DNA of 64,000 bases, taken from contig JBDJPA010000012.1 in the NCBI GenBank assembly GCA_039654915.1, forward strand, positions 1,674,001 to 1,738,000, given 5' to 3'. A program made the translations under genes and the position numbers. The stretch comes from Aquilaria yunnanensis (Eukaryota; Streptophyta; Magnoliopsida; Malvales; Thymelaeaceae). A model generated the notes under the pieces. The model was not told where the DNA came from. It made no database searches and saw only the letters and a list, made by a program, of their open reading frames with translations. Every line of letters begins with the position of its first letter. Position 1 is the first letter of the stretch. Of the stretch, positions 31,131 through 62,610 are shown one piece after another.

Positions 31131-32486
31131 ATGGATGATCATGAGAGAAATGGCATTAACATTTCAGATCATCAACAAGGTGAAAAGCTGGAAGAAGTTG
31201 TGTTGCCAGGCTTCAGGTTTCACCCAACTGATGAAGAGCTGGTAGGCTTCTACCTCAAAAGAAAGATCCAACAGAGGCCTCTCTCTATTGAGCTCATCAA
31301 GCAACTTGACATCTACAAATTTGACCCTTGGGATCTTCCTAGTAAGTTTCTTTCTTTCTTTCTTCCTTTTGCCTCACCTTTTTGAGCTTTTGTTCATATA
31401 TATATAGACACAACTTCTAACCAAAAAGATTGGTTTTTCTTTTCCATGGGCGGTGAAGAGTTGGCGACAACAGGGGAGAAAGAGTGGTATTTCTACTGTC
31501 CAAGGGACAGGAAGTACCGGAACAGTGCGAGGCCAAACCGGGTGACTGGAGCCGGGTTTTGGAAGGCAACCGGGACAGACCGGCCCATCTACTCGTCGGA
31601 GGGAAGCAAATGCATAGGGCTGAAGAAGTCTCTTGTGTTCTACAAAGGAAGGGCAGCAAAAGGAGTCAAAACTGACTGGATGATGCATGAGTTCCGCTTG
31701 CCTACTCTCTCACCAGACCCCTCCTCTTCACCTAAGCGCTTCCTTCACAAAAACCTCCCCTCAAATGTAAACATCTCGCGTACATATACACGCGCGCACA
31801 CACAGACACATTCATATATACACATGTATAGACATAACATATATGAACTAATTAGTGTTTTTTTTTTTTTCGGTATGCAGGACTCATGGGCGATTTGTAG
31901 AATATTCAAGAAAACAAACTCAACAGCCCAACGAGCTCTTTCTCACTCATGGGTGTCTCCCCCAATGCCTGATCAAACCACCTCACCATCAAATCATCAA
32001 CTCCCTAATGGAGACTCCACCAACAACACAACTCATCATCCTCCACCAATCCTCTTGAACCCTAACCCTAATATTCATGACCTTCACCATATTTCCGCCG
32101 CGCCTCATGCTCTGGATTTCTCTTCGTACAAGCTCATCAACCATTTGAGCCTACTAAATAGTCCGGGAGACCTAGCGAGCCTCATCTTCGCCAATATGTC
32201 GTCTTCTTCCTCTTCTTCTCCGATGCCATCGGCCGTTGACTTTGGTGGGTCTCCTCGAGAGCATTGCAACAGCGGTAGCGTAGATGGCAGCTTGATCTCC
32301 TCATCAGTTGCCTTGACCCATGATGAGATTCTTCAACGGAGTGAAAGTTCCTTGACGGCCGATCTTAATCTCAAGCATCTACAGCATGATCAGTGGGATG
32401 CCGTTCGATCAAATGCCGGTTTTCCGTTTGGTTTTCCTGTGGGTTTAGGGGATTCTTGGAAGCCAAACATGATGTGGGATTCTTAA
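31131..32486 (+). CDS. FEZ: FEZ-type NAC transcription factor
   Basis: Three exons, 31131-31341, 31459-31766 and 31881-32486, give 374 codons. The NAC domain is complete. Subdomain A is [13 protein letters not shown] at about 25-37. B is [13 protein letters not shown] is [16 protein letters not shown], and D includes [13 protein letters not shown] and [26 protein letters not shown] is [11 protein letters not shown], just after intron 2. The variable C-terminus is rich in S, P, N and H. The intron positions (after DPWDLP and before DSWAICRIF) are usual for NAC genes. The DNA-binding half strongly resembles Arabidopsis FEZ (At1g26870), which promotes periclinal divisions of root-cap stem cells; that role is inferred here. 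The second intron is 114 bp with no in-frame stop. The gene is undamaged and unrelated in detail to the broken NAC gene at 1346-2536. Confidence 0.9.
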
Positions 32487-39343: not shown

Positions 39344-39474
39344 TTACCTTTACTACGTTAATGGTAACCAATGTTTTACTTTAGAAAATAACACATCATA
39401 AAAAATATATAAAATTGTGTTGAATTTATGTTAATCAAAGAATAGTTTAGCCATTAATATAGTAAAGGTAAAAA
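39344..39474. repeat. 24-bp inverted repeat ending at the retrotransposon boundary
   Basis: TTTTTACCTTTACTACGTTA at 39344 onward is repeated as its reverse complement at 39451-39474 with two mismatches. The right arm stops exactly where the LTR homology begins, and the first 11 bp of the LTR are absent there. Confidence 0.7.
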
Positions 39475-39957
39475 TTTCGTCCGACCATAAAAAATTTTAA
39501 AAGAAATTAAATAAAAGAAATTAAATAAAAAAATTTATTATTATTATTTTTATTATTATTACTAAAAATTTTAATTAGTTTAAAATACATTTTTTTTTGT
39601 GAAGATTTGATTTAAAATGATATATGTGTGTATTTGAAAGAAAAAAAGAAAACTCCAAAAAAATGGCAAAATTTAAAAGTTTGAGGTAAAAATGACAACA
39701 TTAAGAAGTTTCGGGAAAAATTGACAAATTCTGAAAGTTTCAGGAGCATTTGGTAGTTTGTCACATAAAATTTTGGGCCTGCCGACGTTTCCGGCGCAAA
39801 TTGACAGAAAACGACAAAATTGTCAAAATCAGAAGCTTCAGGAACTTATCCAGAGGCTGAGAGACGTAAAGGACTAAAATTGTCATTTTACCAATTTAAA
39901 AGATAAGTTTGAAATTTTTTATTAATTTATCCATCAACAGTTCAGCCAAACTTCCTC

Positions 39958-39965
39958 TATAAATA
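39958..39965 (+). promoter_or_regulatory. TATA box of the 5' LTR promoter
   Basis: TATAAATA within U3, followed by the presumed transcription start about 30 bp on. In the 3' LTR the same place reads TACAAATA. Confidence 0.7.
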
Positions 39966-40399
39966 GCCTCCCAAATTTTGTGCTGAACACAGAGAAAAAT
40001 AGAAAGAAAAGCTTAGAGCTCCGTTTTTAAAATAGAAAAAATTACAGCCTTAGTCCCTAGCTCTCCTTCCTTTCCTCAGAAAATCTCAAAACTTTTCATT
40101 TTGACGATTAAGCCATCTTCTTCCCCCCCCCCCGCGCCCTCTGTTTCCATTTCTCAGAATTCAGAATTTAAAATCAAGGGTACAACTCTCATTTAATCCT
40201 TCATCTTTTCAATTTCTTTCACTTTGGTCACTAACTTTGTATTTTATTCTTGCAGAATTAATTACTAACCCTTTTAATTTTTACTTGTTTGTTTATTATT
40301 TGTTTATTACTAACCCCTTTTTTTTATTGTTGTTATTAACTTACTAACAACTAACTTTTAATACTATTATTGTTACTAACCTTTTAATTTTTGCATTAT

Positions 40400-40800
40400 T
40401 ACTAACTTTTATAATTGTTGTTAACAATTAATTAACTTTTATTATTGTTGTTAATTAATTAATTTAATTAACTTGGCTAACTTTTATTATTGTTGTTAAT
40501 TAATTAATTTACTTAACTTGGCTAGCTTTTTATTATTTTTGTTAATTAATTAATTTAATTAATTTGGCTAACTTTTTATTTATTGTTGTTAATTAATTTA
40601 ATTAATTTGGCTAACTTTTTATTATTGTTGTTAATTAATTAATTTAATTAACTTGGCTAACTTTTTACTGTTGTTAATTAATTAATTTAATTAACTTGGC
40701 TAACTTTTTATTATTGTGGTTAATTAATTAATTTAATTAACTTGACTAACTTTTTATTATTGTTGTTTAACAATTAATTTAATTAACTTTGCTAACATTT
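40400..40800 (+). repeat. AT-rich minisatellite inside the LTR
   Basis: About nine units of roughly 40-45 bp built on TTAATTAATTTAATTAACTT followed by GGCTAACTTTTTATTATTG. The 3' LTR (54990-55400) has one extra unit near 55150-55195. Confidence 0.85.
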
Positions 40801-41963
40801 ATTATTATTTTTAAAGTGGATGGCCAAAAAGCCCCACTTTATTATTATTAATTTTTTTTCTTTATATAATTTTTTTATTTAATTCACCTTTACCCTTTAC
40901 TAATTAATAAATAAATGAAAATTAAAAGAAGATTATTTTGTAATTAATTATTAAGGCTAATAAAAATTATTTTTAAAAAAGCCAATTATTTTTATTTTTA
41001 TATACATGTTTTTAATTCTTTAAAGATAACAAAAAGTTAAAATTAATTTTAATAGTTATTTTTATCCAGTAAAAATAATAAAAAAATAAAAATAAAACCT
41101 GTTTAAAAAAATACATGAAAATTAAGACTTTATATTTTACTGATTTATTTAAAATATAACTTTTAAATCCACTAAAATAATAAATATTTTTCATTAAACA
41201 AGAAAACAAAAAGAAAATTAAAACAAGATAAGAAAAAGATAAGAAAGATAAGAAAAAGATAATAAAGATAAGAAAGATAAGATAAGATAAGAAAGATAAG
41301 AAGGAAAAGGAAGAAAAGAAAGAAAAATATAGAAAATAAAAATTTTTAGATTATTAATGAATCTAAAAATTCTATAACAAAAAGAATTACGAATTAGTAA
41401 TTAAACTAATAATTAATTCCATAAAAATAAGAATTAAATAATTAACTATAAATTAAACCAACTTACATATCCGGATGATCCGTCAGGATCTGTGGTTTAA
41501 AAAAAATATCACCCTTTTAATTAAATAAATTAAATAAAAAAAAAAGATAAAAATCCATATTTACAATATGGATTAAATTATTTAAAAGTTCACCAAATTC
41601 CGTGTCCAAATGACTCGGCAGAGTCCATGGTTCGGAATCAAAAATCTTCCGTGTCCAAATGACTCGGCAGAGTCCATGGTTCGGAAGTATAAAATTTCAT
41701 ACAAATTAATTAATTTAAAAATCCACATTTCGACTAATCCAGTTAAAATTTCTAATTTTGAAAATTAACTGAGAATTATTTAAAAGCAAAGCAAAACAAA
41801 ATTAAAATCAACTAAGGTGCCAATTTTTGGGCGTTTTAACAAAGTTGTTTTAACGTAACCGTACTCCCGATCCCCGAACTCTCGCAGACCAATTTTAAGG
41901 TGACCAATCGACCTAAGAAAACTGATTAGTGGCGACTCCCGAAAACCCGACGTTGCCACAGCT

Positions 41964-41981
41964 TGGCGACTCCACTGGGGA
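41964..41981 (+). other. Primer binding site
   Basis: TGGCGACTCCACTGGGGA, three bases after the LTR end. It starts with TGG, complementary to a tRNA CCA end. From memory Ogre elements use a tRNA-Arg primer with a very similar site; the tRNA was not checked. Confidence 0.8.
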
Positions 41982-42699
41982 CTCCACATTAGTGAGTCGA
42001 GCCTAAAGTTGATTTGTTTTGATTTACTTTGCTTATTATGTGGATTTATATGTTATATTTACTTATTCTAAACATGCATAATGCATTCACAATATGAAGC
42101 TCTATACCCGAGCTTCCTTAAATCAAACACGATTCTTTCTAAGCGGAATTGGTGTTGCTGTCCTTGTGAGGCCACGGTCTCCAAGCCTTCACCGGTTTCA
42201 AAGTAGCAAAGTAGTGTATTGCCTTCTGAGACGGTTAGTCTCTGCATGGGCCCACGAAAAGCTACGACTCGAATTAATCCATTCCTTACATTAACCCTAG
42301 AGGGTAAGGAATCGGGCCGTCACTATGATTTAGTGACGGGATTCGGGAACTATCCCTTGCCTTTTTGATAAGCTACCTTATGCATATAGAACTCCCCACT
42401 TAACCATAGAACTGACCATAGAATTTCTACCATTTTACCAACGCCATAAGCACGTCCTTGTTATGCTATGTTGTTGCTCTACACTTTTATTTTCCGAGTG
42501 TCTTATATTTATGGTTTTAATTCATTTTTCCATAATACTTCATGAGTTGTTAATTGCTATTTAACTTATTAATAACCTTATCTTTCTTGTGCAATTATTC
42601 TTCATGCATCAAAACCACGCATCAAATTATGCTAACTTTTTGGTCTTTATAATGACAACTAAAAGTTTTGAAGTTCTACGATAATGGATAAGCAAACTC

Positions 42700-43110
42700 A
42701 CTCATTGCATGCATTCCCTTACATTAATCACGTGCATATAAAGTATGATAAAAATAATCTCATTGCATGCATTCCATTACATCAATCACACGCATATAAA
42801 ATCTGATAAAAATAATCTCATTGCATGCATTCCATTACATTAATCACATGCATATAAAATCTGATAAAAATAATCTCATTGCATGCATTCCATTACATTA
42901 ATCACGTGCATATAAAGTCTGATAAAAACATAATCTCACTTTATATTGCATGCATCCATTACATCAATCACACGCATATAAAATCTGATAAAAATAATCT
43001 CATTGCATGCATTCCATTACATCAATCACGTGCATATAAATTTTGATAAAAACATAATCTCATTGCATGCATCCATCACATCAATCATATACGCATAGAA
43101 TCTAATAAAA
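42700..43110 (+). repeat. About seven tandem 59-60 bp units in the retrotransposon leader
   Basis: Each unit contains ATTGCATGCATTCCATTACAT, then ATCACRYGCATATAAA, then CTGATAAAAATAATCTC. The array lies between the primer binding site and gag, so it would be in the untranslated leader. Confidence 0.9.
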
Positions 43111-43179
43111 TAAATATTCCTTTAAAAAGGTAAAATTGGACCTTAACACCGATATTCAACTCGACTCCAAACAAGATTA

Positions 43180-44931
43180 ATGGCAGAACAAGCCGAAGGA
43201 CGTCTCATGGAGATGGAGTCCAAGATTGAAAGTATGTCAGAATAGATGAGACAATTGATGGAATTAATCAAAGGGAAAGCAACTCAAGTCCCCATCAAAG
43301 AAGTACAAGATCCCACTTATCCCCCGGGATTCACCCCGCAACGAGTCTCAGTCCAAGAAAACCTGTTTCAAGAATCAGGACCGTCTGCTAGTGTTCACCT
43401 GAAACAAGACACTGTACATGAAGAGAAGAATATATTACCAAAAAAAGAAGCAGAATCTCAAAAGCTCGAAACAATAGAGAAGAGACTGCGAGCCATTGAA
43501 GGAGGTAATATATTCGGATCTCTCTCAGTGGATGACCTCTGCTTAGTGCCAGACGTCATAATCCCTTCGGACTTTAAAGTACCGGATTTCGTAAAATACG
43601 ATGGAACGAGTGATCCCATCACTCACATCACACTGTTCCTAAGGAGACTACAACCACTCACAAAAGATGAAAAGGTGTGGATTGCACTTTTTCAGGAAAG
43701 TCTCACAAAATCAGCATTGCAGTGGTATCTAAGTCAAGGACCAAGAAACATCAAAACTTGGAATGACCTTGCTCAGGCCTTCATCGGCAACTATAAACAT
43801 GTTATGGACTTGGCTCCGGATCGCCAAACTCTCCAAAACATGGAGAAGAAAAAGCCAGAAACTTTCAAGGAATATGCCCAACGGTGGAGGGACTTAGCTG
43901 CACAAGTTCAGCCACCCATGACAGAAAAAGAAATGATTACTTTGTTTGTCCAGACACTGAAATACCCATATTATGACAAACTCATCGGCAATTCGGCAAC
44001 TAATTTCTCCGATGTTGTCATGTCTGGAGAAAGGATCGAGCATGGGATTAGGACTGGGAAGATTGCTGAGTCCTTTAGTGATCTTATGAAAAGAGGAGGA
44101 CCATCCAGAACAAAAGATGAAGAAGTACAACAAATAGGACGCGAAAGAGGGATTCCCCTCGTAGGTACTGTGGCTACCGGTCCTCGCCTATCCTATTCTG
44201 CTAAAAGGCCCAATTATTATCCTACCAATAGGCCCAATGACTATCCTCCCAATATGCCCAATGATTATCCTTCCAATAGGCCTAATGATTATCCTCCCAA
44301 TAGGCCCAACAATTATCCTCTCAACAGGCCTAATCAGTTACGGCCACCTGTTCCGACTCCTCCAGTACCCACACGAAGACCAAAAGAAGTTTTTGCACCA
44401 ATTCCCATGACTTACACTGAGTTGTATCCAAAACGCATAGAAAGTCAACTTATCCGTCCAATTCCTACAAATCCATTTGGACCCCCATATCCAACGTGGT
44501 ATGACCCTAACATAACTTGCCCATATCATGATGGCGTTCCAGGCCATGGCTTGGAAAATTGCACAGCATTGAAACGTATAGTCCAACAATTAATCGAATC
44601 AAAGTGGTTGGACTTTTCCGATGAACCGAACATCACTCACAATCCATTGCCGCCTCATCAAGAAAAACCAGTCAATATGATAGAAGAACACCGGCTGATG
44701 AAAAAGTCAGTCAATGATATCATAACCCCTCTTAAGCATGTATATTCATGCCTTGTGAAAGAAGGGATTATCATGGGAAAGCCTTCTTTTGGACATGAAG
44801 AAGTTGAAGATGAGGAATGGTGCAACTTTCATGACAGTAAGAGTCATTCTATCCAAGAATGTTCAGAATTCCGTAAGAATCTGCAAAGACTCATAGACTC
44901 ATCCCAACTTATCATTTTTATGATGATGTGA
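43180..44931 (+). pseudogene. gag: Retrotransposon gag, with early stop and 3' frameshift
   Basis: The frame opens with ATG at 43180 (MAEQAEGRLMEMESKIES) but meets TAG at 43243-43245. It resumes in the same frame from ATG 43246 for 561 codons. The central block (VPDFVKYDGTSDPITHITLF, ALQWYLSQGP, TWNDLAQAFI, APDRQTLQNM, FKEYAQRWRDLAAQV) is a retrotransposon gag domain of the Tat type. Six units of a NRPNDYPP-type octapeptide repeat follow (44210-44336). Two Cys/His blocks come next, CPYHDGVPGHGLENC and CNFHDSKSHSIQEC, in place of a classic zinc knuckle. Near 44905-44925 the reading shifts: another frame continues from HFYDDVNVII to a stop at about 45071. No protease follows. Gag would form the particle that packages element RNA; here translation could start internally at 43246. 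Confidence 0.85.
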
Positions 44932-45856
44932 ATGTGATCATTAAAGAACAAGAAGTCAATGCTATACCAATCTCAAAACCTACTCTTAAGCCGTCAAGTC
45001 CCAAGGCCATTCCTCTACAAATCAAACAAAACCGAGGTCAAGCTGCTAGGCCCGATGTGATTGGTAATTGAAAGTGAAGATTTTGAGCTGGAATTACATT
45101 GATTTTGGAAGGGCTCCAAGTCAGATCTGACCTAACAGTCCGCATACATTTTTGAATGACAGGGAATCCTTTGAATAAACTTGTATCTTTGAAAGCTTGC
45201 AAAAGTAATCTAATAGTAAAAATCTCCTAGATTTAGTCCAGAATCTAGGGTGTAGTCTTTGTTAAATGGACACCTGCTATTCTTTTTCTGGTACAACAAA
45301 AAGATGTGATGCGTGCATTCTACTACTTTCCATTTTTACACTCTTTGCTATTATACTATCCATTATTGTCATCACACTTTACTTTTCGACAACCGGTAAT
45401 TCATTTTGTTCTCTAACAAAAAGATGTTGCGTGTGCATTCTACCACTTTTTAATCCCATTATTACTTTTACACATTCTACCAAGTTTTACCAAAAATTCA
45501 ATTATTACACCTTCACATTCTACCACTTCTTACCAAAAATTCTGTTTTTACATCTATCTCTCACTTCTTTCCATTATACTATCCATTATTGCTATCATAC
45601 TTTGCTTTCTAAATGATACTACTCGTGGGTGAAAATAAAAAGTTAAGGGAAATTTGATAGTAATGATCTTGAAAGTGCTGCCAAATCTAGTAAGAAGGAT
45701 TTCATATGTTGCACCTCAACCCTCAAAAAGAATTCACAGTGGTTATCAACATCCTTGCAAGAAGTTTGGGGTTAGTTTCCAAACAAGGTAGCTCTCATAT
45801 TAAATGACTTCAGTGGCCTCCCAATTCTCATAAATGCTTAAAAAAAAAAAAAAGAT

Positions 45857-46325
45857 TCTCAGTTTTCCACAACACAAATTCCAACAAAGGAAAGAAGTTC
45901 ATCCCTTCCATCAAAAGCCATTAAAGGGAAAATCCAAAACAAAAAAAAAGAGACTGAGAGCAAACACAAGCAACTAAAGCCACTTGAATCATTTCACTTC
46001 AAGAGGGCTATGATCTCAGTTCTTTGCAACACAAACTCCGAAAAGAGAAGTTCATCCCTTCCATCAAAAAGCCAACAAGGGAAAATTCAAAACCAAAAAA
46101 AAAGAGAGACTGAGAGCAAACACAAGCAAGTAAGGCCACTTGAATCATCTCATTTCAAGAAGGCTATGATCTCGGTTCTCTGTAACAAAAACTCCGAAAA
46201 GGAAAAAGTTCATCCCTTCCATCAAAAGACAACAAGGGAAAATTCAAAACCAAAAAGGACTGAGAACAAGCACGAGCAAGCAAGGCCACTTGAGTCATCT
46301 CACTTCAAGAGAGTTATCAAGTATG
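45857..46325 (+). repeat. Three tandem units of about 155 bp in the element interior
   Basis: Repeated landmarks are AAGTTCATCCCTTCCATCAA, GAGAGCAAACACAAGCAA and CACTTGAATCATTTCACTTC. The repeats leave an open frame (46010-46453), but it is low-complexity and probably not coding. Confidence 0.85.
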
Positions 46326-46589
46326 TCATAACCATAGCTAAAAAAAAAAAAAAAAAAAAAAAAAAGGAAACAAAAAAAAAAGGGGAAAAAGGGCTCAAAC
46401 TAGAGCAAAAGAAAAAAAAAAAGAAAAAAAGTGAGTTATGGATTCTAGACTGAAAACCTGCAAAGGCGGTCTAGAAGACAAAAGCAACCCTCAAACCAAG
46501 CGTACATAAAGATTACGATAGTTGGGGGGCAACAGATGAGGTCTAACTTTCTGAAAAAGGTGGCAAGTTTGAGGTCTTCACTATTGAAT

Positions 46590-46950
46590 TTTTCACCGTA
46601 ATCAGATATGCTCACGAATAGTATTAAAAGACTCTTCTTCCACACCACTTAAACTTAACTTTCCTCAAACCGAACATCCTCATTCAGTTAAAAGACTATC
46701 ATTGTGAATCATGTTTCAACCTTATTTAATACTGCTCACGAGTAGTATTAAAAGACCCTTCTTTCACACCACTGAAACTTAACTTTACTCAGACCTAATA
46801 TTTACCTCTTAATATCATTCTCATTCAGCTAAAAGACTGCCACAAAAAAAAAAAAACATTCAAACTTAACTTTCCTCACACCTAACATTTACCTCTCGAT
46901 ATCATCCTCATTCAGTTAAAAGGCTATTATTGTGAATCATGTTTCTACCT
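46590..46950 (+). repeat. Two to three diverged units of about 120-150 bp
   Basis: Landmarks are CTCACGARTAGTATTAAAAGA, CTTAACTTTCCTCA and CATTCAGTTAAAAGRCTAT. Non-coding. Confidence 0.7.
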
Positions 46951-47867
46951 TATTGCCTTGCACAGTTTATGTCTTCGAGTTGGAAAGGGAAGAATGGCAG
47001 GATATTTTAATTAAAAATAAAGACCATAAATTACTTTGTCAAGCTTTGCAAATTGATGAAAATTTTTCTTTAAGGCCAAACCATTATTCATTAATGTGTG
47101 TAGACTTAAAAGTGAGGAGATAGCTTGAGTCTTTCTTTAATAAGATGTGGTTCTTGTAAGAGAAATTTACGATCAAATGCCATCACAAAGGTCTAGAAAT
47201 GCTCGACCTTCTGTTAAATCAAAGGCGAGATGATACCTTTTATCCACATAAATATCATATTCAGGGGGGCAAAGTAGTCTCTACGAAGCGTAAGAGGAGT
47301 ACTGCCAACAAAGAAGTTCAATAGACAAGGGGGCAAGTCTTATGGATCAAAACATGAGTTCAAGGAAGAGCAATCATTCAGACTATAACATGGGAATAAG
47401 TAAGTGTCGGCACGACCACAAGAAAATGGGCAAAGCAGACATTGAAAGTAAAGCCTTTGATGGTATCAAATCCATGGCAATGGATGAGTACCCGAAAGAG
47501 ATATAAATTATGAGGCGGCCCAACTTTAAAGAAATTGAGGCCAAAATTCAAGAACAAGTCAAAGAAAGAGGATTTTGAAAAGAGTCCAAGAATAGTCCAA
47601 GAAGGCCATCACAAAGAGGATCCAGTAAAACAAAGACATAAAGAACTAGATCCATACAAAAAAAAAAAGCCATTAGTTACACATGCTTTGCATTCATGCA
47701 TTTCACATCATGCATGCATGACTTTTACATGATAGGAATCAAATGGGAAACACATCCACCGCACCGTTACAGCAGTATAAGCTGAGATCTCAATAATATC
47801 AGCTCTTACCAATCTATCACTGGATACACAGCTAATATGCGGGACCAACCCACATCAGGAATTCAAG

Positions 47868-48245
47868 GATAAGGTAGACAATATGTCAAAAGCCTGGCAA
47901 TTGATTCAATAATCGAGACTACACCTGGAAGGACAGGATTGACATCAGCTAGTAGTATCCAAAATAAGAGATAGCTATAGCCAAGGATAAGGCAGATATC
48001 AAAAAGGATAAAGTAGACAATATTGTCAAAAACTTGGCAATTGATTCAATAATCGAGGCTACACCTGGAAGGACAGGATTGATGCCAGCTTAGCAGCATC
48101 CAAGATAAGAGATAGCTGTGGTCAAAGATAAGGCAGACATCAAGAAATATTGTCGTTGAAACTTTGTCAAAAGCGGACAATGGATTCAATAATCGAGGAC
48201 TGGATCAACGTCAGCTCGATGGAATATCCAAGATAAAAAATATCT
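47868..48245 (+). repeat. Three diverged tandem units of about 140 bp
   Basis: Landmarks are CAATTGATTCAATAATCGAG, CTACACCTGGAAGGACAGGA and AAGATAAGAGATAGCT. The array lies directly upstream of the first cysteine-rich gene. Confidence 0.8.
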
Positions 48246-48383
48246 ATCATATCAAAATGAAGTAGGATCTACTTTTCCGGTTAAACGGCGGATACGGTAC
48301 TCCGTGACTCTCAAGTCGGTTCTCTCAGTTGCCCATAATAACTGATTCCTTCACCCCTTCTTTCTTTTACTTCCTCCTAGAAA

Positions 48384-48932
48384 ATGGATCCTACTTTTTC
48401 CGCCTTGCGAAAGTATTTCCCTTCTTTCCCAATGAACATCCTCAAAAAGATCTACCAAGTTCGCTGTGAACGATTAAGAGTTCTGATGCACAAAGGAATC
48501 CCTGAAGATGTGCGGTGGTTAATCGAAGCCAAGGTTCGTCTGGCAGGTGAAATCCCAGAGGCATTTGTGTCTCACATGCCTGGTATAGGCAAAAGCTCTT
48601 ATGCCAAAAAGCGAAGAGCGAAAAGGTTACAAGTCTGCCATAAATGTGGACGGTGGACTTGTAATACTAAATGTCGTTCTTTAGGGATGATCTCTGATAA
48701 TCGAGAAGATAAAATACGATTCATTAAGAATGGCCTGAGTAAAGACTCGTTGGATGATATCCAATTGACTCTTGAGACGCATTCTTGTGGATCTGTGCAA
48801 CGTGAACTACTTGGTTTGTGGAGCATTTTTCATGAAGAACGAAACCGTTACAGTCCCGGGAATCTGACTGTAAATGACCCTGTTTGCCAGCTTGTAAGAA
48901 AACTGGATGGGAAGCAAATCCTCGACTCATAG
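48384..48932 (+). CDS. Cysteine-rich basic protein, copy 1 (viral NABP-like), retrotransposon-borne
   Basis: Intronless 182-codon gene. Residues 1-68 are predicted mostly helical (LRKYFPSFPMNILKKIYQ, DVRWLIEAKVRLAG). Residues 69-81 carry a glycine/serine turn and a strong basic patch (KKRRAKR at 75-81) fit for nuclear import and nucleic-acid binding. It is followed at once by C85, C88, C93 and C97 (C-X2-C-X4-C-X3-C), then an isoleucine/serine/asparagine turn and FIKNG at 113-117. The order of basic patch, four-cysteine cluster and short hydrophobic motif resembles the cysteine-rich nucleic-acid-binding proteins of carlaviruses and allexiviruses. That is my recognition by pattern, not a search result. 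The C-terminal 65 residues, with a conserved HSC and NDPVCQ, match nothing I know. Function is unknown; nucleic-acid binding is likely. No TATAAATA box is seen close upstream, unlike copies 2 and 3. Confidence 0.8.
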   Translation: MDPTFSALRKYFPSFPMNILKKIYQVRCERLRVLMHKGIPEDVRWLIEAKVRLAGEIPEAFVSHMPGIGKSSYAKKRRAKRLQVCHKCGRWTCNTKCRSLGMISDNREDKIRFIKNGLSKDSLDDIQLTLETHSCGSVQRELLGLWSIFHEERNRYSPGNLTVNDPVCQLVRKLDGKQILDS

Positions 48933-49094
48933 AAGCCGTTAATGCCGTTACTGGACAAAAAACCAGTGGAAGATGTGAGCCACAGTCACAATTACTGTAC
49001 ATACAGTTTGTTATATTTGGAAAAGTTTGCATTTTCTTTTGACAGATGTACACGCTCCCCTAAGTGTAATCGACACGTTATCCCTTTTCATCAC

Positions 49095-49102
49095 TATAAA
49101 TA
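49095..49102 (+). promoter_or_regulatory. TATA box upstream of copy 2
   Basis: TATAAATA inside the segment TTATCCCTTTTCATCAC-TATAAATA. A closely similar segment precedes copy 3 and the LOG-like gene. It lies about 120 bp before the start codon. Confidence 0.55.
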
Positions 49103-49221
49103 CGTGTTCTTCCTTCTGATTAAGCAGCGGATAAGATACCCCGTGACTTCTAAATTCAGTTATTCCAGTCTCCTACAATAACTGATTCATTTCCCTCTTC
49201 TCTCAAATTCTTCTCTCATCA

Positions 49222-49770
49222 ATGGATTCTACTCTTTCTGCACTGCGAAAATACTTTCCTTCCCTTCCAATAAAAGTCCTTAAAAAGATCTACCTGGCTA
49301 GATGTGAAAGAATCAGAGTTTTTACACGCAAAGGCATTCCCGATAATGTGCAGTGGATAATTGAAGCTAAGGTCCGTTTGGCGGGTGAAGTTCCAGATGC
49401 ATTTATGCCCCGCATGCCCGGTTTAGGTAAAAGCCGTTATGCCAAAAGGCGAAGAGCAAAGAGACTAGGCGTGTGTTATAAATGTGGGCGATGGAATTGT
49501 ATTACTAAATGTCGCTCTTTAGGATACATCTCCATAAATCGTGAAGATAAAAGAAAATTCATTAAGAATGGCTTGCGTAAGGAATCTCTGGAAGATATCC
49601 GAGAGACTCTTGAAACGCATTCTTGTGGAAAAGTGCAAGGTGAAATTATCAGTTTATGGAGGACTTACCATAAAGAACGAAACCGTTACAGTCTTGGGAA
49701 TGTGATTTTAAACGACCCTGTTTGTCAGTTTGTAAGGAAACTGGATGGGAAGCAAATCCCCGACTTATAG
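49222..49770 (+). CDS. Cysteine-rich basic protein, copy 2 (viral NABP-like), retrotransposon-borne
   Basis: Same length (182 codons) and no indel relative to copies 1 and 3, with about three quarters of residues identical by eye. The basic patch reads KRRRAKR and the four cysteines keep the C-X2-C-X4-C-X3-C spacing (VCYKCGRWNCITKC). FIKNG, the HSC near residue 135 and NDPVCQ are also kept. Substitutions are spread over the protein and many are conservative (I/V, D/E, K/R), as expected under selection on the protein. The upstream leader (CCGTGACTTCTAAATTCAG to CAATAACTGATTC) and the downstream segment (CATTACTGGACAT...CAGTGGAAGATGAGAGCCAC) match those of copy 1. The duplicated unit of about 0.8 kb therefore includes flanks. 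Function unknown. Confidence 0.8.
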   Translation: MDSTLSALRKYFPSLPIKVLKKIYLARCERIRVFTRKGIPDNVQWIIEAKVRLAGEVPDAFMPRMPGLGKSRYAKRRRAKRLGVCYKCGRWNCITKCRSLGYISINREDKRKFIKNGLRKESLEDIRETLETHSCGKVQGEIISLWRTYHKERNRYSLGNVILNDPVCQFVRKLDGKQIPDL

Positions 49771-49920
49771 AAGGCATTGAAGCCATTACTGGACATAAAT
49801 CAGTGGAAGATGAGAGCCACGGTCATGATTCCTGTACATATAAGCTGTCATTTGTCTTTTCTTTTGACAATAATGTACTTGCTTCTGTAAGTGTAATTAA
49901 CGCATTATCCCTTTCATCAC

Positions 49921-49928
49921 TATAAATA
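49921..49928 (+). promoter_or_regulatory. TATA box upstream of copy 3
   Basis: TATAAATA preceded by TTATCCCTTTCATCAC, 59 bp before the ATG of copy 3. Confidence 0.6.
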
Positions 49929-49986
49929 TGTGTTAGTTATTTTCATTTCCTACAATCACTAATTTCTTTCTTTGCCTCCTTCATCA

Positions 49987-50535
49987 ATGGAGTCTTCTCT
50001 TTCCGCCCTACGAAAGTATTTTCCTTCCTTCCCAATAAATGTTCTTAAAAAGATTTATCAAGCTAGATGTGAACGATTCAGAGTATTTATGCACAAAGGC
50101 ATTCCTGATAATGTGCGGTGGCTAATTGAAGCTAAGGTTCGTTCAGCTGGTGAAGTTCCAGAAGCGTTCTTTCCCCGTATGCCCGGCTTTGGTAAAAGCG
50201 CTTATGCCAAAAAAAGAAGAGCAAAGAGGCTAGGCGTTTGTCATAATTGTGGATGGTGGATTTGCGGCAATAAATGTCGTTCTCCAGGAGTGATCACCAG
50301 AAATCGTAATGATAGAATAAGATTCATTAAGAATGGCTTGCGTAAGGAATCTCTAGAAGATATTCGAGAGGTTCTTGAAGCGCATTCTTGCGGAATAGTG
50401 CAATTTGAGGTTGTTGGATTATGGATAATTTTCCAAAAAGAACGAGATCGTTACAGTCTTGGGAATCTGACCCTAAACGACCCTGTTTGCCAGTTTGTGA
50501 GAAAGCTAGATGAGATGCAAATCACCGATTCATAG
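49987..50535 (+). CDS. Cysteine-rich basic protein, copy 3 (viral NABP-like), retrotransposon-borne
   Basis: The ATG at 49987 gives 182 codons, equal to the other two copies; an upstream in-frame TTG was rejected as a start. The basic patch is KKRRAKR. The cysteine spacing is unchanged (VCHNCGWWICGNKC), though some residues between the cysteines differ from the other copies. Helical N-terminus, FIKNG and NDPVCQ are all present. The downstream segment has expanded into a short tandem array (50575-50960). Three intact paralogues in a row suggest either dosage or division of labour. I do not recognise a cellular plant family for it. If it is related to viral cysteine-rich proteins, roles in binding RNA or DNA, countering silencing or altering host transcription are possible but unproven. 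Confidence 0.8.
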   Translation: MESSLSALRKYFPSFPINVLKKIYQARCERFRVFMHKGIPDNVRWLIEAKVRSAGEVPEAFFPRMPGFGKSAYAKKRRAKRLGVCHNCGWWICGNKCRSPGVITRNRNDRIRFIKNGLRKESLEDIREVLEAHSCGIVQFEVVGLWIIFQKERDRYSLGNLTLNDPVCQFVRKLDEMQITDS

Positions 50536-50574
50536 AAAGCATTAAAGCCATTACTGGACGCAAAGCCATTGGAA

Positions 50575-50960
50575 GACGAGGATCAAAGTCACGATTACTG
50601 TACGTGCTAGCTGTCGCTTTTGAAATTTTCCTCCCCTTTTGGTAATAATGTATTCACTCCTAACGTGAACCAAAGTCACGATTACTGTACATGCTAGCTG
50701 TCGCTTTTGAAATTATCCTCCCAATAATGTACCCACTCCTGACATGAGATACAGTTATGATTACTATATATAGCTGCCACTTTTTAAAATTTTCCTTCTC
50801 TTCCAACAATCACGTACCTACTCCTGACGTAAGCTACAGTAGTGACTACTGTACATGCTAGCAGCTATTTTGAAAATTTTCCTCCTCTTTTAATGATAGT
50901 GTACCCATACCTGACCAAAGTCATACTCGTGACTACTGTGAATAGCTGGCAATAATGTAT
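50575..50960 (+). repeat. Four to five diverged units of about 75-90 bp after copy 3
   Basis: Each contains a form of AGTCACGATTACTGTACATG then CTAGCTG then CTTTTGAAATTTTCCTCC then AATGTACCCACTCCTGAC. The unit is the 3' flank of the cysteine-rich genes, repeated up to the LOG-like gene. Confidence 0.85.
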
Positions 50961-51001
50961 CCATTCTTGAAAATAAAATTATTGCCTTATCTCTTCATCT
51001 C

Positions 51002-51009
51002 TATAAATA
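51002..51009 (+). promoter_or_regulatory. TATA box upstream of the LOG-like gene
   Basis: TATAAATA preceded by CTTATCTCTTCATCTC, 40 bp before the ATG at 51042. It is nearly the same segment as before copies 2 and 3. Confidence 0.6.
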
Positions 51010-51041
51010 TATCCTCTTTTCTCACAAGGGTAAGGATAGGA

Positions 51042-51672
51042 ATGGAGAAAACCCCAACTCGTAAATCCCGAAGTATTTGTGTATTTTCTGGGGCTTTTCC
51101 TGGAAAACATGAAGAGTATTTAAAAGCAGCCAACCATTTGGGAAGAGTATTAGCTGAGCGAAAAATACATTTAGTTTATGGAGGAGGTAGTGTCGGATTA
51201 ATGGGAGGTGTAGCATCAGCAGCATCTCTAGGAGGAAGTCAAGTTCTGGGTATTATCCCTGGATCTCTGAAATTTATTTCTGGGGGCACGATTGGAGAAG
51301 AATTAGTGGTTAAAAATTTGCAAGAGCGTGTGTTACAAATGCTTTTAAATGCTGATGCTTTTATCGCTCTACCAGGTGGTTTTGGCACATTGGGAGAAGT
51401 CTTTCAAATTGCTTCCATGGCCCCAACTTAATTTGCATAAGAAACCCATTGGACTTTTGAATGTTAACAATTTCTTTACAGGTCTGATAGCTTTCATGGA
51501 TTATGCTATGCAGAAGAATTTCATATCAAGAGTGACACGGCGAATTATAATATCCGCAACAACTGCTGAAGAATTGCTAGATAAAATACAAGCTTTTGTT
51601 CCTGAACCAGATCCAGCAATGATTCAGATAGACTGGACACGACAGTCTTTCCCGACCAGTTCACTCCCATAA
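51042..51672 (+). pseudogene. LOG-like: LOG-like cytokinin-activating enzyme gene, frameshifted, intronless
   Basis: From ATG 51042 the first 129 codons encode the N-terminal Rossmann half of a LOG family protein. Visible are SICVFSGAFPG, the phosphate-binding LVYGGGSVGLMGG, GSQVLGIIPGSL and the signature PGGFGTLGEVF (family PGGxGTxxE). After about 51412 the reading must move by one base: the same family continues in another frame (QLNLHKKPIGLLNVNNF, then SATTAEELLDKIQAFVPEPDP) to a stop at 51670-51672. One extra base is the simplest cause. LOG enzymes release active cytokinin bases from their riboside monophosphates in the cytosol. Plant LOG genes normally have several introns; this copy has none, so it probably came from a spliced transcript. 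A longer in-frame start at 50955 would lie ahead of the TATA box and was not chosen. Confidence 0.85.
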
Positions 51673-52214
51673 TGGTCCTCTACTCACCTTGTTGAAGTAT
51701 TGTGGAAGAAAGAAGCGATCTGATCCGTTTTTCTTGTCCTTTAGTTTTATTATCAGCATTTTCTTTCGCGTTTCAGTTTTTCTTTTCAGGGAATTTCTTT
51801 TTTTATAATATAGTTTCATCCATGCTGATATTAAAACTATAGGACAATGCCTTTAGGTTGGAATGGCTGAGTAAAGAGTAATTTTTGTTACTCTTGAGAC
51901 GCATCCTATTAGGTCTACTAGGCATAACATTTTGGGGTAGTTAAGCTTTAACCTTATTCGGATGACATATCTCACAAGGGAATCTATATTTACTGAAGAA
52001 AATATTAGATGAACCTTGAATATTGATTCCAAACATCCGTTCCATTTACATAATTTGTCAGTGTTATTGTCATCATCAAGATTCACTCGTTTTATCGAAG
52101 CCTAATTCTTTGCGCTCGCCAATTATGAAAATTCACACTTTCGAAGAAAATTATTCCAATTTCAATTGCTTTCATATAAATTTCGCTCGAGGTCCTAAGG
52201 AAAGCTCATTAGCC
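51673..52214 (+). other. Spacer between LOG-like gene and minisatellite
   Basis: Non-coding, A/T-rich, part of the retrotransposon interior. No motif recognised. Confidence 0.5.
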
Positions 52215-53870
52215 TCAAAATCAATTTTCATCATCGGGGTTTTAAGGATGGAACCTTTGCCTCGAAAATAATCAATTTTCATCATCGAGGTTTTAAGGAT
52301 GGAACCTTTACCTCGACATCAATCAATCAATCCGAGGTTTTAAGGATGGAACCTTTGCCTCGAAAACAATCAATTTTCATCATCGGGGTTTTAAGGATGG
52401 AACTTTGCCTCGAAAATAATCAATTTTCATCATCGGGGTTTTAAGGATGGAACCTTTGCCTCGAAAACAATCAATTTTCATCATCGGGGTTTTAAGGATG
52501 GAACCTTTGCCTCGAAAACAATCAATTTTCATCATCGGGGTTTTAAGGATGGAACCTTTGCCTCGAAAACAATCAATTTTCATCATCGGGGTTTTAAGGA
52601 TGGAACCTTTACCTCGAAAACAATCAATTTTCATCATCGGGGTTTTAAGGATGGAACCTTTGCCTCGAAAACAATCAATTTTCATCATCGGGGTTTTAAG
52701 GATGGAACCTTTGCCTCGAAAACAATCAATTTTCATCATCGGGGTTTTAAGGATGGAACCTTTGCCTCGAAAACAATCAATTTTCATCATCGGGGTTTTA
52801 AGGATGGAACCTTTGCCTCGAAAACAATCAATTTTCATCATCGGGGTTTTAAGGATGGAACCTTTGCCTCGAAAACAATCAATTTTCATCATCGGGGTTT
52901 TAAGGATGGAACCTTTGCCTCGAAAATAATCAATTTTCATCATCGGGGTTTTAAGGATGGAACCTTTGTCTCGAAAAGAATCAATTTTCATCGTCGGGGT
53001 TTTAAGGATGGAACCTTTGCCTCGAAAACAATCAATTTTCATCATCGGGGTTTTAAGGATGGAACCTTTGCCTCGAAAATAATCAATTTTCATCATCGGG
53101 GTTTTAAGGATGGAACCTTTGCCTCGAAAAGAATCAATTTTCATCGCCGGGGTTTTAAGGATGGAACCTTTGCCTCGAAAACAATCAATTTTCATCAATC
53201 CGAGGTTTTAAGGATGGAACCTTTGCCTCGAAATCAATCAATCAATCCGAGGTTTTAAGGATGGAACCTTTGCCTCGAGATCAATCAATCAATTCGAGGT
53301 TTTAAGGATGGAACCTTTACCTCGACATCAATCAATCAATCCGAGGTTTTAAGGATGGAACCTTTGCCTCGAAATCAATCAATCAATCCGAGGTTTTAAG
53401 GATGGAACCTTTGCCTCGAGATCAATCAATCAATTCGAGGTTTTAAGGATGGAACCTTTACCTCGACATCAATCAATCAATCCGAGGTTTTAAGGATGGA
53501 ACCTTTGTCTTGACATCAATCAATCAATTCGAGGCTTTAAGGATGGAACCTTTACCTCGACATCAATCAATCAATCCGAGGTTTTAAGGATGGAACCTTT
53601 GCCTCGAAATCAACCAATCAATCTGAGGTTTTAAGGATGGAACCTTTGCCTCGAAATCAATCAATCAATCTGAGGTTTTAAGGATGAAATCTTTGCCTCG
53701 AGATCAATCAATCAATTCAAGGTTTTAAGGATGGAACCTTTGCCTCCAAATCAATTAATCAATTCGAGGTTTTAAGGATGGAACCTTTGCTTCGAAATCA
53801 ATCAATCAATCCGAGGTCTTAAGGATGGAACCTTTGCCTCAGAAACAATCAATTTTCCTTCAACGATAGG
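52215..53870 (+). repeat. Minisatellite of about 33 units (51-bp and 47-bp types)
   Basis: The constant core is GGTTTTAAGGATGGAACCTT followed by TGCCTCGAAA. Units 1-19 are mostly 51 bp with an ATCAATTTTCATCATCGGG spacer. The later units are 47 bp with an ATCAATCAATCAATCCGA spacer. Each core can fold: CGAGG pairs with CCTCG and, inside, AAGG pairs with CCTT around ATGGAA. Because 51 is divisible by three, long repeat-made frames open on both strands; I do not believe they are coding. The array ends about 150 bp before the polypurine tract. Confidence 0.95.
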
Positions 53871-54005
53871 AGAGCTCCTATCGCCGGGGTTCTAAGGAGA
53901 GTTCCTTAACCTCAGGATTTAGGCGGCGAAAAGGTTTTCAATGCCTAGCTAAGCCGGACGAAATTTGGTAACGACTTTGCATACATCATGTCTCATGAAG
54001 CATGC

Positions 54006-54018
54006 AAAGGGGGGCAGC
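54006..54018 (+). other. Polypurine tract
   Basis: AAAGGGGGGCAGC directly before the TGTTGACACCC start of the 3' LTR. It would prime plus-strand synthesis. Confidence 0.85.
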
Positions 54019-56564
54019 TGTTGACACCCAATTTCGTCCGACCATAAAAAATTTTAAAAGAAATTAAATAAAAGAAATTAAATAAAAAAATTTATTATTA
54101 TTATTTTTATTATTATTACTAAAAATTTTAATTAGTTTAAAATAAATTTTTTTTTGTGAAGATTTGATTTAAAATGATATATGTGTGTATTTGAAAGAAA
54201 AAAAGAAAACTCCAAAAAAATGGCAAAATTTAAAAGTTTGAGGTAAAAATGACAACATTAAGAAGTTTCGGGAAAAATTGACAAATTCTGAAAGTTTCAG
54301 GAGCATTTGGTAGTTTGTCACATAAAATTTTGGGCCTGCCGACGTTTCTGGCGCAAATTGACAGAAAACGACAAAATTGTCAAAATCAGAAGCTTCAGGA
54401 ACTTATCCAGAGGCTGAGAGACGTAAAGGACTAAAATTGTCATTTTACCAATTTAAAAGATAAGTTTGAAATTTTTTATTAATTTATCCATCAACAGTTC
54501 AGCCAAACTTCCTCTACAAATAGCCCCCCAAATTTTGTGCTGAACACAGAGAAAAATAGAAAGAAAAGCTTAGAGCTCCGTTTTTAAAATAGAAAAAATT
54601 ACATCCTTAGTCCCTAGCTCTCCTTCCTTTCCTCAGAAAATCTCAAAACTTTTCATTTTGACGATTAAGCCATCTTCTTCCCCCCCCCCCCCGCGCGCCC
54701 TCTGTTTCCATTTCTCAGAATTCAGAATTTAAAATCAAGGGTACAACTCTTATTTAATCCTTCATCTTTTCAATTTCTTTCACTTTGGTCACTAACTTTG
54801 TATTTTATTCTTGCAGAATTAATTACTAACCCTTTTAATTTTTACTTGTTTGTTTATTATTTGTTTATTACTAACCCCTTTTTTTTATTGTTGTTATTAA
54901 CTTACTAACAACTAACTTTTAATACTATTATTGTTACTAACCTTTTAATTTTTGCATTATTACTAACTTTTATAATTGTTGTTAACAATTAATTAACTTT
55001 TATTATTGTTGTTAATTAATTAATTTAATTAACTTGGCTAACTTTTATTATTGTTGTTAATTAATTAATTTAGTTAACTTGGCTAGCTTTTTATTATTTT
55101 TGTTAATTAATTAATTTAATTAATTTGGCTAACTTTTTATTTATTGTTGTTAATTAATTTAATTAATTTGGCTAACTTTTTATTTATTGTTGTTAATTAA
55201 TTTAATTAATTTGGCTAACTTTTTATTATTGTTGTTAATTAATTAATTTAATTAACTTGGCTAACTTTTTACTGTTGTTAATTAATTAATTTAATTAACT
55301 TGGCTAACTTTTTATTATTGTGGTTAATTAATTAATTTAATTAACTTGACTAACTTTTTATTATTGTTGTTTAACAATTAATTTAATTAACTTTGCTAAC
55401 ATTTATTATTATTTTTAAAGTGGATGGCCAAAAAGCCCCACTTTATTATTATTAATTTTTTTTCTTTATATAATTTTTTTATTTAATTCACCTTTACCCT
55501 TTACTAATTAATAAATAAATGAAAATTAAAAGAAGATTATTTTGTAATTAATTATTAAGGCTAATAAAAATTATTTTTAAAAAAGCCAATTATTTTTATT
55601 TTTATATACATGTTTTTAATTCTTTAAAGATAACAAAAAGTTAAAATTAATTTTAATAGTTATTTTTATCCAGTAAAAATAATAAAAAAATAAAAATAAA
55701 ACCTGTTTAAAAAAATACATGAAAATTAAGACTTTATATTTTACTGATTTATTTAAAATATAACTTTTAAATCCACTAAAATAATAAATATTTTTCATTA
55801 AACAAGAAAACAAAAAGAAAATTAAAACAAGATAAGAAAAAGATAAGAAAGATAAGAAAAAGATAATAAAGATAAGAAAGATAAGATAAGATAAGAAAGA
55901 TAAGAAGGAAAAGAAAGAAAAGAAAGAAAAATATAGAAAATAAAAATTTTTAGATTATTAATGAATCTAAAAATTCTATAACAAAAAGAATTACGAATTA
56001 GTAATTAAACTAATAATTAATTCCATAAAAATAAGAATTAAATAATTAACTATAAATTAAACCAACTTACATATCCGGATGATCCGTCAGGATCTGCGGT
56101 TTAAAAAAAATATCACCCTTTTAATTAAATAAATTAAATAAAAAAAAAAGATAAAAATCCATATTTACAATATGGATTAAATTATTTAAAAGTTCACCAA
56201 ATTCCGTGTCCAAATGACTCGGCAGAGTCCATGGTTCGGAATCAAAAATCTTCCGTGTCCAAATGACTCGGCAGAGTCCATGGTTCGGAAGTATAAAATT
56301 TCATACAAATTAATTAATTTAAAAATCCACATTTCGACTAATCCAGTTAAAATTTCTAATTTTGAAAATTAACTGAGAATTATTTAAAAGCAAAGCAAAA
56401 CAAAATTAAAATCAACTAAGGTGCCAATTTTTGGGCGTTTTAACAAAGTTGTTTTAACGTAACCGTACTCCCGATCCCCGAACTCTCGCAGACCAATTTT
56501 AAGGTGACCAATCGACCTAAGAAAACTGATTGGTGGCGACTCCCGAAAACCCGACGTTGCCACA
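54019..56564 (+). repeat. 3' LTR
   Basis: Begins TGTTGACACCC and ends GTTGCCACA. It is complete, unlike the 5' copy. Compared with 39473-41960 there are about ten single-base differences by eye, one extra 44-bp minisatellite unit near 55150 and a longer C run near 54680. Its TATA box position reads TACAAATA. Confidence 0.95.
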
Positions 56565-60646: not shown

Positions 60647-61378
60647 CTAAAAATTGCTCTCAAATTTGTCTCTTTTACCATCTTCAGGGTTAAAGTTGTC
60701 ATCATTGTTGATGTTCAAAGCTCCAATCCCAGTCTCTGATGATCTCTTCCCGAAATTGTTCTTGTTATTGTGCATCCACACCTTCAGAACCCCTCTCTCA
60801 ACCCCAATCTCTCTGCAGAACTCATCCACTGAGTTGTCTCCATTTCTGGGCATCTTCCACCCAATCTTCTCCGCAAAACCAAGCATCTTCTGCTTCTGTT
60901 CTCTGCTGAACTTTGTTCTTGACCTCTTTCTCGGACTCGGGCTCTCTCTCTTTCCGGCCGTTGGATTCGAACCTGACGGCCGGGATTGGCCAGTGGTAAG
61001 GGCCAGGAGCATCTGTGGGGCAGAAGAATAGTATGAATGAGGGGCAGGGGAGGGCGGAGTGGTCTGGGTCTGGGTGGGGGTCGGGCTTCGGCTGTGGGCC
61101 GGGCTCTGGTCCGGGCTAGCGCTGGTGGTGTAATTGGGCGGCGGAGGGAAGTGGTGGACGAAGGGTTGTATTGGGAAGTCGTAGGGATGACGGGCGTGGA
61201 AATTACGGTGGCAGCCGCAGGCGGCACATCTGAGGGAAACGGGATCCGCGGGGGTGGCGGTGGGGGTGGGCATGAACTCGCCGCAGCCGTCGAGAGCGTG
61301 GCCACCCATGGTGGCTGCGTGGTTCTTGAGACACTCTTTGTAGGAAACTACCATTTCTTTGGTTTGGTTTTGGTCCAT
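60647..61378 (-). CDS. Zinc finger-homeodomain (ZF-HD) transcription factor
   Basis: Single exon, 243 codons. Residues about 13-62 form the ZF-HD dimerisation zinc finger (SYKECLKNHAATMGGHALDG, CGEFMP, then LRCAACGCHRNFHARH) with its C/H ligands complete. Residues about 68-150 are a proline/serine/threonine-rich linker containing the common MLLAL motif. Residues about 150-210 form the divergent homeodomain (KRSRTKFSREQKQKMLGFAE, KIGWKMPRNG, VDEFCREIGVERGVLKVWMH, NNKNNFGKR). Intronless structure is typical of the family. ZHD proteins act as dimers in the nucleus in floral, leaf and stress programmes; the specific role here is unknown. No defect was found. The start at 61378 is the only ATG ahead of the finger that preserves it. 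Confidence 0.93.
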   Translation of the reverse strand: MDQNQTKEMVVSYKECLKNHAATMGGHALDGCGEFMPTPTATPADPVSLRCAACGCHRNFHARHPYDFPIQPFVHHFPPPPNYTTSASPDQSPAHSRSPTPTQTQTTPPSPAPHSYYSSAPQMLLALTTGQSRPSGSNPTAGKRESPSPRKRSRTKFSREQKQKMLGFAEKIGWKMPRNGDNSVDEFCREIGVERGVLKVWMHNNKNNFGKRSSETGIGALNINNDDNFNPEDGKRDKFESNF

Positions 61379-62002: not shown

Positions 62003-62610
62003 GAGGGTTTGAGCAAAGAAATCCTATCTACTGCAGGTTGCGGGTGCGGGTAGTATTTAGGTGAAAGTTTTATATTATGGATAGGATTTGGGAATCACTC
62101 TACTATCCCCAAACTTAGCTCTTGGACATCCCTAAATGTGTTCATGTAGATCAAGAGAGGAAGAGGGGAGGAGGTTGTAGTGATGCAGGTAGTTACAATG
62201 AGAGAGAAGTTTGCCATGTCCAAATGAGGTAAAAATATTGATAATTTTCGATGATACACAAATACAATTCAATATATATTTCATGTATGCACCATCCCCA
62301 ACGCCAGAGCAAGGAGGGTTTGAGCAAAGAAATCTTATCTACTGCAGGTTGCGGGTAGTATTTAGGTGAAAGTTTTATATTATGGATAGGATTTGAAAAT
62401 CACTCTACCGTCCCTAAACTTAGCTCTTTGACATCCCTAAATGTGATCATGTAGATCAAGAGAGGAAGAGGAGAGGAGGTTGGAGTGATGCGGGTAGTTA
62501 CAATGAGAGAGAAGTTTGCCATGTCCAAATGAGGATAAAAGTATTGATAATTTTCTATGATACATATACAATTCAATATATATTTCATGTATGCACCATC
62601 CCCAACGCCA
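62003..62610 (+). repeat. Tandem duplication of about 300 bp
   Basis: Copies at about 62003-62305 and 62314-62610 share most bases. Landmarks are GAGGGTTTGAGCAAAGAAAT, CATGTAGATCAAGAGAGGAA and TATATATTTCATGTATGCAC. Non-coding. Confidence 0.93.

Follow-up and report, generated by a model that had tools for sequence, protein, structure and literature searches.

Our analyses indicate that the long terminal repeat (LTR) retrotransposon spanning positions 39473-56564 of the window, the whole 64,000-nucleotide stretch of Aquilaria yunnanensis DNA analysed here (within contig C27 of a genome totalling 842,125,765 bases), belongs to a large, recently active family of the Ogre lineage and has lost pol. 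The regular module of this family, located between pol and the 3' LTR, consists of three or four genes for proteins resembling the nucleic-acid-binding proteins (NABPs) of plant RNA viruses and of an intronless gene of the LOG family. The window element is not a single event, and this cassette travels with the LTR family. The original prediction had described a non-autonomous element of the Ogre/Tat type with a sense-orientation cassette within its LTR pair, all of which is supported; its further proposal that the cassette stands in place of pol failed, as explained below.

The element has the architecture of a real LTR retrotransposon, with an LTR pair, a primer-binding site (PBS), gag, a polypurine tract and tandem arrays, all on the plus strand. 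Its two LTRs (39473-41960 and 54019-56564) are 99.6% identical over 2,488 aligned columns, with 10 mismatches and two gaps, one of 4 and the other of 43 nt. The PBS (TGGCGACTCCACTGGGGAC, 41964-41982) begins 3 nt past the LTR end and is also found behind the LTR of the pol-bearing relative L048 (the numbers L039 to L061 designate stretches of the same genome fetched for examination), and the polypurine tract (AAAGGGGGGCAGC) occupies positions 54006-54018. Between them lie a gag gene of 561 amino acids (43246-44931; PF03732, E 3.6e-12), 90% identical at the nucleotide level to gag of L048, and tandem arrays with units of 58 bp (42701-43110, in the leader, the place occupied by ORF1, an open reading frame (ORF), in L048), 156 bp (45857-46311), 140 bp (47865-48198, upstream of the cassette), 85 bp (50722-50915, upstream of LOG) and 51/47 bp (52219-53857, about 33 units). 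An array of 24-bp repeats is present too. Alignment, sequence and the PF03732 match confirm in this way the architecture, the gag and the ordered arrays recognized earlier. The completeness then ascribed to the LTR architecture holds for the pair, the PBS, the tract and the 3' LTR, which runs from TG to CA, but the first 11 nt are missing from the 5' LTR, and around the window copy we saw no target-site duplication. In agreement with the predicted lack of pol domains, tblastn with the pol pieces of the pol-bearing relative yielded no match in the window element at E 1e-6; an ORF1 with a plant mobile domain is not present in the window copy either, which is devoid of ORF1, protease and pol. As to the four accessory genes announced, the three cysteine-rich paralogues are open and the LOG-like gene is present, although frameshifted in this copy.

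Allowing up to two mismatches, the genome contains 3,082 tract-LTR junctions, and a 32-nt stretch of LOG is present at 2,701 places at up to three mismatches, the reversed-pattern controls giving 0 hits in both cases. Within the first 23.94 Mb of C1, 47 of the 66 exact LOG places are followed, 1-7 kb downstream and on the same strand, by an exact junction, against a mean of 0.9 and a maximum of 4 expected from random placement (500 trials). We also examined a cassette-blind sample, chosen by tract and LTR start from the first 30 exact hits on C1, of which we took the 17 on the plus strand. NABP genes and LOG accompany 16 of them; the remaining one (L047) is broken up by a gag-pol on the minus strand, whose reverse transcriptase shares 97.6% identity with its L048 counterpart. 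Looking for other copies, as had been advised, hence showed the cassette to go with the LTR family, and neither of the outcomes named as refuting was encountered for this copy, be it a cassette confined to it among LTR-family copies without one or an intact pol in its interior.

Three of the 16 cassette elements possess an integrase just upstream of the cassette. In the first, an integrase-core frame (rve, E 2.8e-10; L046:1-807) ends about 1.4 kb before the first NABP gene and is followed by four NABP genes, LOG and the tract; the adjoining upstream stretch of 10 kb, L048, contains the 5' LTR end, the PBS, ORF1, a gag ORF with a G-patch and the pol domains in the order RVT_1, RT_RNaseH, RVT_3 (an additional RNase H) and Integrase_H2C2. 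In the second (L053 with L061) the integrase ahead of the cassette is identical at 269 of 269 residues, and in the third (L045) it shows 93% over 117 residues and is disrupted by another LTR. With an integrase directly upstream of the same cassette in these related elements, the cassette as a replacement of pol was rejected. In both L048 (3821-7183) and L047 (2155-3960), the gag-protease ORF ends shortly after a G-patch domain. According to a survey of these elements, elements of the Ogre or Retand lineages are recognizable by where their additional RNase H lies, 57% of Ogre elements have a 5' extra ORF with a plant mobile domain, and the gap between the two Ogre polyprotein ORFs averages 274 nt (PMC6317226). 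ORF1 of L048 (1968-3683) matches PF24924 (DUF7745, E 5.4e-56) and the plant mobile domain PF10536 (35.2 bits for a cut-off of 34.9), and the open frames end at 7183 and resume at 7376, leaving a gap of about 190 nt between gag-pro and pol, the place of a short spliced intron in Ogre elements. The plant mobile domain and the split ORFs suggest that the lineage is Ogre (Ty3/gypsy, Tat), to which the window copy belongs solely through the homology of its LTR, leader and gag.

Pol-less copies prevail among the 16 cassette elements. The middle region of the window element is clearly present in 10 of them (L043, L044, L051, L052 and L054-L059) and probably in two more (L050 and L060), for which the fetched stretch reaches only 0.9-1.1 kb above the first NABP gene. 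The three pol-bearing elements lack this region upstream of its position ~1,100, and L049 is not classifiable as pol-bearing or pol-less, another element sitting in its first NABP gene. The element L041/L042, which has the same structure as the window element, is flanked by a 5-bp target-site duplication (CAAAC), its LTRs are 99.56% identical and its gag frame is shorter (453 amino acids). The reduction goes further in L039/L040, for which we found no match to gag or pol, all four cassette ORFs are open and the other stop-to-stop frames of at least 120 amino acids are only repeat-array frames and two of 120 and 126 amino acids. Its two LTRs do not differ at any of the 3,257 fetched bases (the 3' LTR was fetched without its outer end), and a copy stripped of gag and pol has thus moved recently. 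The features of a non-autonomous LTR element, namely LTRs, PBS and tract kept, pol absent and recent movement, are found here.

The NABP-like genes of the window, N1 (48384-48932), N2 (49222-49770) and N3 (49987-50535), are cysteine-rich paralogues of 182 amino acids, all three with open frames. They match PF05515 with E values of 2.8e-7, 2e-7 and 4.9e-6, respectively, and N1 matches PF01623 with 5.6e-6. Together with N2b of L046, they exceed the curated cut-offs of both PF05515 (Viral_NABP) and PF01623 (Carla_C4), two Pfam families of cysteine-rich proteins from plant RNA viruses, N3 barely so for PF01623 (21.5 bits for a cut-off of 20.9), and 20 of 20 scanned variants match both families at E 0.01. 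The invariant residues include the cysteines C85, C88, C93 and C97 of a finger that has a basic stretch ahead of it. In the tree of the paralogues, the N1 and N3 clades (both 100/100) and the main N2 clade (100/99) are well supported, which implies that the duplications predate the spread of the sampled copies; N2b forms a fourth lineage. This fourth paralogue occupies L046:3831-4376 and L053:1226-1771, both in pol-bearing elements, and N2 of L050 resembles an N2/N2b recombinant. Pattern scans of viral contigs with N2 and LOG retrieved no relatives among 21 and 2 pattern matches, respectively.

The LOG-like gene (about 51042-51672; PF03641) belongs to the cytokinin riboside 5'-monophosphate phosphoribohydrolase family and is split over two frames in the window copy. 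It is open across 207-209 amino acids, as a single uninterrupted frame without introns, in 13 of the 19 copies examined. LOG of L046 surpasses the cut-offs of PF03641 (106.2 bits vs 27) and TIGR00730 (149.3 vs 96.35) and stays below that of the NCBIfam equivalog NF058542 (98.7 vs 300). Its likeness to the LOG cytokinin-activating enzymes lies in its nearest solved chain, 2a33 (Arabidopsis At2g37210, E 9.5e-52), and in the LOG signature motif PGGxGTxxE, unchanged in all 11 aligned copies; it differs from them in being intronless, in residing inside a retrotransposon and in an altered RK of 2a33.

Judging from the variation among copies, all four cassette genes are under purifying selection, which on active copies appears to have kept the proteins. 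Frames are open in 12 of 18 assessable N1 (one further N1, cut by the fetch boundary, was left out of the count), 17 of 20 N2 and 17 of 20 N3, in addition to the LOG copies just mentioned. Among open copies only, in a sample of limited size drawn largely from the first 8 Mb of one chromosome, the pooled ratio of nonsynonymous to synonymous polymorphism (pN/pS) is 0.155 for N1, 0.380 for N2, 0.273 for N3 and 0.306 for LOG. As neutral reference, the same variable sites were placed randomly on equal bases in 60 trials per gene, giving means of 0.70-0.80 and minima of 0.41-0.52, so that the observed value is lower than all 60 for each gene. Off-frame values are 1.54 and 1.60 for N1, 0.93 and 0.90 for N2, and 0.88 and 1.11 for N3. 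Between the NABP paralogues, the corresponding ratio of substitutions (dN/dS) is 0.20-0.29.

The cassette seems to have been exchanged as a module between LTR backgrounds, because near-identical cassettes stand behind barely alignable LTRs. In 17 elements, the distances of N3 and LOG are correlated (rho 0.52, p 0.0055) and those of LTR and N3 are not (rho 0.11, p 0.27). Nine pairs among those listed have N3 distances of at most 0.015 and LOG distances of at most 0.019, together with LTR p-distances of 0.52-0.58 over the first 900 bp; the latter are little better than unaligned, with good alignment only over the first ~80-90 bp, and being saturated they show discordance and not a dated history. 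The phylogenies of cassette and LTR, whose agreement the original prediction had proposed to test, do not match in a simple way. The cassette genes also share upstream motifs. TATA-box-like motifs at 49095-49104, 49921-49930 and 51002-51011 lie 127 nt before N2, 66 nt before N3 and 40 nt before LOG, and TATAAA recurs 87-140 nt upstream of N2 in 18 of 18 copies, 63-115 nt upstream of N3 in 19 of 19, 40 or 48 nt upstream of LOG in 19 of 19 and before N2b in 2 of 2, all within the range of 40-140 nt and in a context common to these four genes.

The explanation that we consider reasonably likely as a whole is that of a pol-deleted Ogre-family copy with a regular NABP-LOG module, replicated in trans, open to cassette exchange and served by the cassette proteins in the ways proposed here. 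Following established retrotransposon biology, pol-less copies would be packaged and copied by the gag-pol of pol-bearing relatives. N2, N3 and LOG may be expressed from internal promoters of their own, as their TATA motifs suggest, and template switching between co-packaged RNAs would recombine copies and spread a favoured cassette across LTR backgrounds. Most speculative are the roles of the proteins. By raising active cytokinin locally, LOG might favour dividing or meristem cells, where new insertions are heritable. Plant retrotransposons are silenced through small RNAs, and the simplest role that several selected NABP-like genes might have is to protect the element against silencing by small interfering RNAs; such protection, if shared in trans, would explain the spread of an element stripped to its cassette. 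Among viral relatives, the cysteine-rich proteins of carla- and mandariviruses are described as suppressing RNA silencing and raising virus accumulation, and one, p12 of chrysanthemum virus B, is reported as a transcription factor (PMC12172455). If the NABP-like proteins act like viral ones, they could be nucleic-acid-binding silencing suppressors or transcription modulators. By this analogy, we regard an anti-silencing role as plausible though somewhat short of probable. The view of a parasite that keeps probable host-interaction genes, already expressed in the original prediction, is supported.

Several observations weigh against this explanation. The Pfam match to the viral NABPs is local (residues ~16-122 of 182) and its E values, among those listed, are modest (7e-6 to 2e-8 for PF05515, 2e-4 to 8e-7 for PF01623), and the AlphaFold model of an NABP-like protein is poor (pLDDT 45). 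In the element LOG copies, the RK of 2a33 is replaced by RV or RL, and the enzyme activity is therefore only putative. The off-frame control of LOG is uneven (0.46 and 2.99), and the choice of open copies lowers pN/pS somewhat, in a sample that one chromosome end dominates. A weak correlation between LTR and LOG distances persists across the 17 elements (rho 0.39, p 0.019). The TATA motif of the paralogues is missing from the corresponding place before N1, which has only a different one at -152 in 3 of 17 copies, and consequently the internal-promoter account does not cover N1. Finally, L041/L042 and L039/L040 were chosen by N1 similarity and not randomly.

Alternatively, the NABP-like proteins might be transcription factors, like p12 of chrysanthemum virus B, that switch on the LTR and internal promoters of the element. 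Three or four diverged paralogues, each under selection, would suit different DNA targets, but with LTRs that barely align a sequence-specific activator needs a target outside their diverged part, and we consider this possibility rather unlikely. Much less likely is a passenger cassette, picked up once and hitchhiking without use to the element. Plant retrotransposons are described as capturing genes often (PMC13317346), and the cassette genes are indeed broken in some copies (6 of 18 N1, 3 of 20 N2, 3 of 20 N3 and 6 of 19 LOG). Against it speak the old paralogue lineages retained across divergent elements and the recent movement of a copy reduced to LTRs and cassette, and a neutral passenger was rejected on the pN/pS of all four genes, which falls below the neutral reshuffles.

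The window copy could also be an individual deletion product, resulting for instance from unequal recombination after insertion, with no transposing pol-less lineage behind it. Its missing 11 nt and the lack of a visible target-site duplication would fit, but the same middle region recurs clearly in 10 and probably in 2 of the 16 elements and is absent from the three pol-bearing ones, and L041/L042 combines this structure with a target-site duplication and 99.6% identical LTRs. The common pol-less structure largely refutes this quite improbable reading. Least credible of all, to the point of being negligible, is a repeated host gene cluster that retrotransposons entered or flanked: LOG does belong to a plant gene family, and N2, N3 and LOG each come with a TATA motif, but a local cluster was rejected on the 2,701 LOG places and on the fixed orientation that 47 of the 66 examined have relative to the tract-LTR junction, while LOG is an uninterrupted frame in 13 of 19 copies and the NABP families are viral in Pfam.

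Other features of the window are of more local interest. Both LTRs harbour a TTAATTAATTAATTT-rich tandem array with a 46-bp unit (40433-40814 and 54994-55418), inside which the 43-nt gap of the LTR alignment falls. A sense ORF at 45266-45616 encodes 116 amino acids, hydrophobic and cysteine-containing, without Pfam match, and the open 120-amino-acid frame of the gag-less L039 includes a stretch resembling it. Host genes or gene pieces surround the element (NAM at 1589-2536 and 31446-32486, Methyltransf_29 at 5757-6638 and ZF-HD at 60647-61378), and a 194-bp direct repeat occurs at 62042-62540 in two copies 305 bp apart with 93% identity. Scans of the window with Rfam (gathering threshold) and for tRNAs gave no matches.

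With four extra genes of recognisable families, signs of protein-level selection and a spread by the thousand, this family would make the role of accessory genes in plant retrotransposons directly testable. If the proposed explanation is true, genes of a viral silencing-suppressor type in a retrotransposon would connect plant RNA viruses with plant mobile DNA in a new way, and the LOG gene would tie transposition to hormone-controlled cell division. Going further, and more tentatively than for the anti-silencing role, the NABP-LOG cassette could be seen as a selfish module of trans-acting silencing-suppressor and hormone genes that shields every copy sharing it, moves between LTR lineages by template switching and yields cassette-only elements; its NABP-like proteins would have a common ancestor with the NABPs of plant RNA viruses, genes having passed from flexiviruses to Ogre elements or the other way. 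We found no paper whose title or abstract opening mentions a retrotransposon with NABP or LOG genes, in a search that had the subscription literature mostly outside its reach.

Accessory ORFs, non-autonomous LTR elements and gene capture are already known. The pol-bearing relative resembles the Ogre elements of the survey in its additional RNase H between RNase H and integrase, split polyprotein ORFs, 5' ORF with a plant mobile domain, long LTRs and tandem arrays, but the prominent extra-ORF domains reported there are the plant mobile domain, Transposase_28 and Athila ORF-1, sense NABP or LOG genes not being named among them (PMC6317226). Since its extra ORFs were predicted from 250 codons upwards, cassette genes of 182 and 209 amino acids would have escaped it (PMC6317226). 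Retand elements are likewise described with a long region between pol and 3' LTR, accessory ORFs, tandem arrays and some families without gag or other domains; their accessory ORFs are, however, mostly antisense and mostly TRP28, and the sense ORFs of at least 600 bp reported there have no known domain (PMC11963269). With the cysteine-rich NABPs of carla-, mandari- and allexiviruses, the proteins studied here share PF05515/PF01623 and a basic stretch followed by a four-cysteine finger, but they are tandem paralogues encoded by a retrotransposon, and their silencing suppression is putative. TR-GAG elements are short and have LTRs and gag as only gene, without pol, and LARD elements are large without pol. 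Both are non-autonomous with LTRs and no pol, like the window element, which differs by its four accessory genes under apparent selection, by its 17 kb, with genes beyond the only gag of TR-GAG, and by the existence of a gag-less, cassette-only relative. VANC of the VANDAL DNA transposons is a protein different from the NABP-like ones. Its function has been demonstrated, in a DNA transposon, whereas ours is inferred for a retrotransposon, and the role proposed here matches that of VANC, a transposon protein aiding related copies in trans against silencing (PMC13317346, PMC10398659, PMC5735166).

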